Positions 13,635 to 13,986 of a DNA stretch of 28,342 bases are shown here, piece after piece. The notes below the pieces were generated by a model that saw only the letters and a program-made list of their open reading frames with translations, searched no databases and had not been told where the DNA came from. The stretch lies in the IMG/VR virus record IMGVR_UViG_3300042549_002866, positions 1 to 28,342 of that record; one strand, given 5' to 3'. The DNA comes from a virus. Both the position numbers and the translations under genes were made by a program. The stretch's first letter is position 1; the number at the start of each line of letters is the position of its first letter.

Positions 13635-13816
13635 TCAAACTTGAATTGAGTATAGACGATTGTAATATGATTCTTCGTGTATTGGGTAAGCACCCATTTG
13701 AGGAAGTAGTTGCAGTTATCAACAAAATTAAACAGCAAGGTGAACCACAGGTTGTAGCATTAGAAGCAGAAGCTGCAAAAAATGCACCAGCTGAAACACC
13801 TGCAGAAAAAGCATAA
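13631..13816 (+). CDS. Small hypothetical protein after RegA (61 aa)
   Basis: 61 residues starting in an ATGA overlap with regA. The first ~38 residues look folded and helical (LELSIDDCNMILRVLGKHPFEEVVAVINKI). The tail is Ala/Glu-rich low complexity ending PAETPAEKA. The helical part resembles small phage proteins that begin with a similar LSIxExNxIL motif, but I cannot name a function. Last gene of the clamp-loader unit, followed by a terminator hairpin. Confidence 0.72.
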   Translation: MIKLELSIDDCNMILRVLGKHPFEEVVAVINKIKQQGEPQVVALEAEAAKNAPAETPAEKA

Positions 13817-13819
13817 ATA
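13812..13819 (+). promoter_or_regulatory. Candidate late promoter box
   Basis: CATAAATA matches seven of eight positions of the T4 late promoter TATAAATA. It would start transcripts near 13826, in front of the pqqA-like gene and hsp20. A single short match in AT-rich DNA is weak evidence; gp55 and gp45 in this window show the late system exists. Confidence 0.35.
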
Positions 13820-13820
13820 C

Positions 13821-13858
13821 CATTAGGTATAACTAATGATTTTCATTAGCTGGTTTTT
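13821..13858 (+). terminator. Terminator with a competing alternative hairpin
   Basis: CTAATGA (13833-13839) pairs with TCATTAG (13843-13849), followed by a T-run near 13854-13858: a terminator. CATTAG at 13821-13826 can instead pair with CTAATG (13833-13838), which would disrupt it. The two folds are mutually exclusive. Confidence 0.55.
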
Positions 13859-13868
13859 GTCCTCTCAA

Positions 13869-13908
13869 TCCTAAGTAATAAGTCCAACAATGGACAAACA
13901 ATTAGGAG
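13869..13908 (+). promoter_or_regulatory. Leader hairpin that could cover the ribosome binding site of the pqqA-like gene
   Basis: TCCTAA (13869-13874) can pair with TTAGGA (13902-13907), with an inner GTCC (13882-13885)/GGAC (13892-13895) stem. The 3' arm includes most of the AGGAG (13904-13908) that serves the ATG at 13915. Pairing would reduce translation. Stem lengths are modest. Confidence 0.4.
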
Positions 13909-13914
13909 ATTATT

Positions 13915-13986
13915 ATGTGGACAAAACCATCAGCAACAGAAATGAGATTTGGCTTTGAAGTTACAATGTATGTAATGAATAAGTAA
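13915..13986 (+). CDS. pqqA: Coenzyme PQQ precursor peptide PqqA (phage-encoded)
   Basis: A 23-codon gene with a strong AGGAG (13904-13908) six bases before the ATG and tandem TAA stops. The peptide has the length and layout of bacterial PqqA: it begins MWTKPS, has an Arg at position 11, then GFEVTMY (13-19), and ends in NK. Glu15 and Tyr19 are at the positions that the radical SAM enzyme PqqE crosslinks to form the PQQ skeleton in Klebsiella-type PqqA. Pseudomonas-type PqqA peptides start MWTKP and contain GFEVTMY, so the match extends over most of the peptide. No pqqB, C, D or E is in the window, so host enzymes (PqqD chaperone, PqqE and the rest) would have to process it. PQQ is the cofactor of periplasmic methanol and glucose dehydrogenases. 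The gene is far below usual size cutoffs and easily missed. Confidence 0.85.
   Translation: MWTKPSATEMRFGFEVTMYVMNK

Follow-up and report, generated by a model that had tools for sequence, protein, structure and literature searches.

The DNA analysed here, which we call the window, is a virus record of 28,342 bases with T4-type replication genes; its products include a gp62-like clamp loader (Pfam Phage_clamp_A) and RegA (Pfam Translat_reg, E 2e-47). The gene of interest is pqqA, whose 23-residue product scores above the cut-offs of both Pfam PF08042 (43.3 bits, cut-off 21.1, E 3e-11) and NCBIfam TIGR02107 (40 bits, cut-off 20). Its neighbourhood contains a 61-residue open reading frame (ORF) without a Pfam match and hsp20. 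Directly upstream of hsp20 in phage relatives, there are matches to the ROSE_3 RNA thermometer (L083:1445-1510 and L069:4506-4572; L numbers denote individual loci), and an Rfam scan of the window found no match of this type at its own hsp20 leader. The following features, all on the + strand, make up the pqqA leader and gene:

13812-13819, + strand: CATAAATA, a second late-promoter-like octamer and putative promoter, overlapping the stop codon of the 61-residue ORF
13821-13826, + strand: CATTAG, arm 1
13833-13849, + strand: perfect dyad CTAATGATTTTCATTAG, candidate PQQ-regulon operator (host weight matrix and phage motif)
13869-13874, + strand: TCCTAA, 5' arm of a predicted stem at the ribosome-binding site (RBS)
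13871-13877, + strand: CTAAGTA, -10-like element of the putative pqqA promoter, 21-22 nt past the operator (alignment and spacing)
13882-13895, + strand: small inner hairpin GTCCAACAATGGAC, predicted by folding; similarly placed hairpins of other sequence occur in L061, L120, L030 and L060
13902-13908, + strand: 3' arm TTAGGA (13902-13907) with the Shine-Dalgarno sequence (SD) AGGAG (13904-13908)
13915-13986, + strand: pqqA, encoding the PQQ precursor peptide MWTKPSATEMRFGFEVTMYVMNK (PF08042, TIGR02107)

The dyad ends 65 nt before the pqqA ATG. The octamer at 13812-13819 is the sole match to [TC]ATAAATA within the window, and CATAAATA or CATAAGTA is also present in L087, L061 and L120. At the start region, AUUAUUAUGUGG is similar to the SELEX consensus of T4 RegA quoted in a passage of PMC3014915, and similar starts are also found in non-T4 loci.

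Viral PqqA has already been reported as an auxiliary metabolic gene in the T4-like viruses VP_139 and VP_266 from Lake Baikal, and for VP_266, a virus of Methylophilaceae, it was proposed to raise PQQ for methanol dehydrogenase (passages of PMC7678222). Those passages name no operator or leader, and what the present analysis adds is a regulatory site and the spread of that site across many phage loci. Among 50,697 phage records, 12 matched PqqA (E up to 10), nine of them from phages of Methylophilales or Methylophilaceae, and seven of the 12 matches fall where no feature is annotated. For instance, pqqA is unannotated in the isolates MT375522.1 (9977-10045), KX815270.1 (28085-28153), MW452941.1 (3316-3384), OP830907.1 (43050-43118) and MZ577097.1 (76140-76205), and the annotation of phage Melnitz has instead an ORF on the other strand. 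In IMG/VR, at least 120 stretches encode the PqqA core GFEVTMY. We read 127 phage loci (the window, 120 from IMG/VR and six from phage records), of which 123 had enough clean upstream sequence and gave 105 leaders after dereplication.

A preliminary description of this DNA read the leader as an RNA switch, in which CATTAG (13821-13826), CTAATG (13833-13838) and CATTAG (13844-13849) form two alternative hairpins, one of them a terminator with a T-run, while TCCTAA and TTAGGA pair over the RBS. All five hexamers lie where it placed them, and the hairpins are indeed mutually exclusive, because arm 2 is common to both and pairs with either arm 1 or arm 3. The terminator, however, does not hold up: only two of the seven pairs in the arm 2/3 hairpin are G-C, the T-run lies 4 nt past the stem instead of directly following a G-C-rich one, and a consensus scan for terminators did not list it. 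As RNA, this hairpin folds at -5.1 kcal/mol around a 3-base loop. The covariation analysis that had been suggested was carried out on an alignment of eight T4-like leaders (the window, L087, L061, L120, L030, L060, L117 and L072), and it gave a borderline result for the arm 1/2 stem (89.6% paired, with 28 of 500 shuffles equally high) and no excess for the arm 2/3 stem (82.1%, 222 of 500) or the RBS stem (68.8%, 328 of 500, in an alignment that shifts some arms by at least one base). Two pairs of the arm 2/3 stem are broken in four of the eight leaders, and these changes track the host operator consensus described below, which argues against attenuation through alternative terminator folds. 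Arm 1 is kept in the window's nearest relatives L087, L061 and L120 and in L072, and lost in L030, L060 and L117. The window has no Rfam match at gathering score and two sub-gathering matches (E 0.49 and 3.1) far below threshold, which speaks against a riboswitch of a known family. RNA regulation does occur in a T4-like OM43 phage, since Melnitz has a glutamine riboswitch (passages of PMC9004378), whereas the window matches no Rfam family. The presence of three arms and the borderline arm 1/2 stem are what could be said for an attenuator or ligand riboswitch with alternative terminator and antiterminator folds, but the weak stem, the displaced T-run, the covariation tests and the loss of arm 1 led us to reject such a switch. 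Moreover, the element is conserved at a constant distance from a -10 box that follows it, and therefore lies upstream of that start. We consider this explanation highly improbable and read the leader mainly as a DNA control site, not as an RNA attenuator.

The nature of this site can be seen in the bacteria. A scan of bacterial genomes for stretches coding for ATEMRFGFEVTMY returned at least 120, and the 80 titles among the matches listed were of Methylophilales genera or of betaproteobacterial, Nitrosomonadales or proteobacterial bins. From 125 pqqA leaders of Methylophilaceae, dereplicated to 113, a de novo search recovered the dyad YTMATGAWWWTMMTKAG (LL 905, compared with 90-99 for shuffled leaders), and the resulting host weight matrix reaches at least 12 bits in 103 of the 113 leaders and in 3 of 565 shuffles. 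When 15 host genomes picked for carrying this pqqA were searched for the strict palindrome, with a single mismatch allowed, 37 sites were found in 13 of them, compared with six occurrences on forward reading of a control pattern read backwards. Most of these sites (27 of 37) precede pqqA or pqqB. One, in a single genome, precedes a PqqU-like TonB receptor, which matches NF041535 at E 1e-113 (the fragment available scores 380.7 bits, below the cut-off of 1200 for the full length) and whose nearest PDB entries are YncD and a PQQ transporter; six have no clear link to PQQ. Three others (L287, L298 and L309) precede the gene of a pentapeptide-repeat protein whose N-terminus weakly resembles YHS, possibly a further gene of the PQQ regulon.

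Several observations on the host genes are relevant here. Tandem pqqA, with two copies about 200 nt apart, is found in the OM43-type loci L144, L147, L204, L214, L220, L238 and L317, and in such genomes a good operator match lies at the first copy only. Methylophilaceae tend to have several copies of pqqA (3 to 12 in one comparison), while the other pqq genes are usually single (passages of PMC4109929), so precursor dosage may matter. A literature search in an open-access library found no paper describing the operator in its title or abstract, and a term search of PMC8024684 and PMC10580990 found no mention of PQQ. A close parallel is the pqq operon of Pseudomonas, where, as proposed here, a transcriptional activator governs the genes for PQQ synthesis (passages of PMC12997753); there the activator is AgmR/ErbR, whereas for Methylophilaceae we describe a candidate DNA site.

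In the window, the site at 13833-13849 comprises arms 2 and 3 and reads CTAATGA-TTT-TCATTAG, with seven pairs in a dyad that is perfect over 17 bp. It has the YTMATGAWWWTMMTKAG dyad of the Methylophilaceae operator and, like it, lies upstream of a PQQ gene. With 22.0 bits, it is the top host-matrix score of the window (the runner-up has 12.3), and none of 200 dinucleotide shuffles of the window reached that value (maximum 21.0); by the plain dyad pattern with up to three mismatches, the number of matches is ordinary (28 of 100 shuffles). An EM search of the 105 phage leaders converged on a single element, with consensus TTYAATGRTTTTMNKTAK, nearly always in + orientation and mostly 45-100 nt 5' of the ATG. 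Rebuilt without the window, the phage motif had an LL of 551, compared with 66-72 in three shuffled sets, and again scored best in the window at 13833-13849 (19.5 bits); in two-fold cross-validation, it was found in 84 of 104 held-out leaders and 44 of 1040 shuffles. Upstream of pqqA, the element is present in 93 of the 105 phage loci, namely 87 of the 89 with a Methylophilaceae-type PqqA, as assigned by a simple sequence pattern, versus 6 of the 16 others. The host matrix at 12 bits or more finds it in 45 of 105 phage leaders versus 10 of 2100 shuffles, and the right half-site is weaker in phages. The isolates Venkman and MEP402 have no good forward-strand site at the usual place; Venkman (38.6 kb) has a site near pqqA on the opposite strand (16.5 bits), tied with one intragenic site. 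We rejected the idea that the dyad is a motif repeated across phage genomes, as it is the single strong match in the window and the best-scoring place in the 50 kb of Melnitz.

The distance to the promoter is also conserved. In all seven dereplicated T4-like leaders, the distance from the operator to the start of TAAGTA is 21 or 22 nt (22 nt in the window), and the columns of CTAAGTA are invariant in the alignment; TAAGTA differs from the canonical TATAAT. Among host operators, 53 of 104 end 43-45 nt before a -10 box (shuffled mean 2.8, maximum 7), while among phage operators the favoured spacing is 20-22 nt (35 of 91; shuffled mean 4.6, maximum 11), with 11 of 91 at the host distance (shuffled maximum 10); the typical values are 44 nt in hosts and 21 nt in phages. 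The -35 boxes are poor, mostly with two or three of six matches to TTGACA. If the -10 begins at -12, as our start positions assume, the centre of the operator would fall at about -42 in phages and about -65 in hosts, 23 bp or roughly two helical turns apart, which are probably activator positions; together with the poor -35 boxes, they would fit an activator that contacts RNA polymerase.

Thus, motif identity, association with PQQ genes, fixed spacing and conservation are the grounds for reading 13833-13849 as an operator. From these sequence comparisons, we give a probability of roughly 75% to the leader being a promoter-operator region, in which the phage has kept the operator of the host PQQ regulon together with what appears to be an activator-dependent promoter. 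Against this reading, it can be said that the host matrix at 10 bits or more reaches only 57 of 105 phage leaders, that Venkman and MEP402 deviate as described above, that the host genomes were picked for their pqqA and that 10 of the 37 host sites are not before pqqA or pqqB. Against activation, it can be said that a late-type TAAGTA promoter may have no need of an upstream activator and that a constant distance would be compatible with a repressor as well. In the latter case, the dyad would turn pqqA off when PQQ is plentiful, a feedback that the phage would have kept. The phage operator, at 21 nt from the -10, does adjoin the -35 region, and the linked genes serve synthesis and, once, uptake; nevertheless, the gap between operator and -10 is 44 nt in hosts, which is far for simple repression, and poor -35 boxes are typical of activator-dependent promoters. 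We therefore regard a repressor site as unlikely.

A different kind of control could act on translation. The octamer CCTAAGTA (13870-13877), a possible late-type promoter, overlaps the 5' strand of the predicted RBS helix, and the stem 13869-13874/13902-13907 encloses the -10 TAAGTA. According to passages of PMC3014915, inhibitory leader hairpins of T4 genes e, soc, 49 and I-TevI hold the RBS in a helix with a late-type promoter on its 5' side, an arrangement that the window may share. The window differs in having TAAGTA and not TATAAATA, in its host-type operator upstream and in that its effect is predicted by folding. In Melnitz, the late-type octamers over 50 kb are TATAAATA, with eight on the + strand, all near an SD and ATG. 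There, AATCCCTTGT and ACAAGGGATT enclose the late promoter TATAAATA ahead of a gp5 OB-domain gene next to pqqA (L249:16300-16370), which is another gene e-like arrangement.

One could suppose that such a gate acts alone and the dyad is incidental; pqqA would then stay silent while early read-through RNA is made and be translated from late RNA. In its favour, the SD of the window is predicted to be unpaired at 0.20 in the long RNA and 0.89 in the short one, and the corresponding values are 0.20/0.84 in L087, 0.15/0.62 in L120, 0.35/0.75 in L030, 0.02/0.46 in L117 and 0.18/0.59 in L122. The fold predicted for the segment 13866-13916 has -11.9 kcal/mol and a z of -3.9 (only -1.1 with other segment limits), and hairpins around TAAGTA have a mean z of -2.1 in eight T4-like leaders, each folded alone and without the near copy L087 (range -4.2 to +0.3, window -1.1). 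The control was a mean of -0.54 at 171 other TAA[AG]TA sites, used in place of late-promoter leaders of other genes (n=2). Different arms form such stems in Melnitz (GCCCTC/GAGGGC) and L120 (TTCTCC/GGAGAA). However, shuffled 5' parts hide the SD of the window equally well (0.19), which makes the masking prediction unspecific; the SD is hardly freer, or less free, in the short RNA of L061 (0.40/0.41), L072 (0.31/0.33) and L060 (0.52/0.30); the folds of L030 and L060 are ordinary; and a gate alone would leave the operator in hosts and non-T4 phages unexplained. We find this explanation possible, though rather doubtful. As for the covered RBS of the preliminary description, the stem is indeed predicted and masking is plausible in read-through RNA, but the pair counts in the alignment give no support to conserved pairing between the two arms. 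A general hairpin after the -10 of phage pqqA leaders was likewise set aside, as the excess is only modest (mean z -1.07, n=105, versus -0.47 in 250 other phage gene leaders). A gene e-type gate may act in the window in addition to the promoter-operator; masking would then plausibly affect read-through RNA only, as in gene e, and would not be a ligand switch.

A separate structured RNA (UCAA, a 6-bp helix and GANCUG) lies about 65-95 nt upstream of pqqA in 13 phage loci (L035:798-857, L083:3020-3079, L064:613-672 and 10 more) and six host loci with tandem pqqA (L144:6997-7061, L147, L204, L214, L220 and L238). It is absent from the window. Of its aligned cells, 97.4% are paired and 28 carry changes in both partners, a number that none of 500 shuffles reached, with compensatory changes in four of six pairs, and it was found in seven of the eight OM43-type genomes searched. 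In the 13 phage loci this RNA matched no Rfam family at gathering score, and it is a candidate for a new cis-regulatory RNA of PQQ synthesis.

With the leader taken as a promoter-operator, the following picture can be proposed. In Methylophilaceae the operator lies upstream of pqqA and pqqB and once of a putative importer of PQQ, and the phage would carry the host-type operator with its own copy of pqqA, under an activator-dependent promoter copied from the host regulon. The regulator that switches on host PQQ synthesis would then probably also switch on viral pqqA. The extra PqqA could feed the host PqqB-E enzymes and so sustain the PQQ-dependent methanol dehydrogenase during infection. In T4-like phages, a hairpin would in addition surround the late-type -10 TAAGTA; the RBS may be hidden in read-through RNA, and RNA begun at TAAGTA would do without TCCTAA, because this arm overlaps the -10. 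Tentatively, and with less confidence than in the operator, we suggest that unrelated methylotroph phages have wired a one-peptide gene into an undescribed host PQQ regulon and rebuilt its switch, and that the T4-like line has added a timing hairpin.

If this is true, the shift of the operator towards the promoter by about two helical turns (-42 versus -65) could strengthen or hasten the response of viral pqqA in comparison with the host's own several copies. A candidate operator of the PQQ regulon is now defined for an entire bacterial family, and phages appear to have kept it, as a control site of the host, upstream of an auxiliary gene that is missing from most phage annotations. The 17-bp dyad may thus serve both as bait for finding what regulates PQQ synthesis in methylotrophs and as a handle for testing whether viruses steer methanol oxidation.
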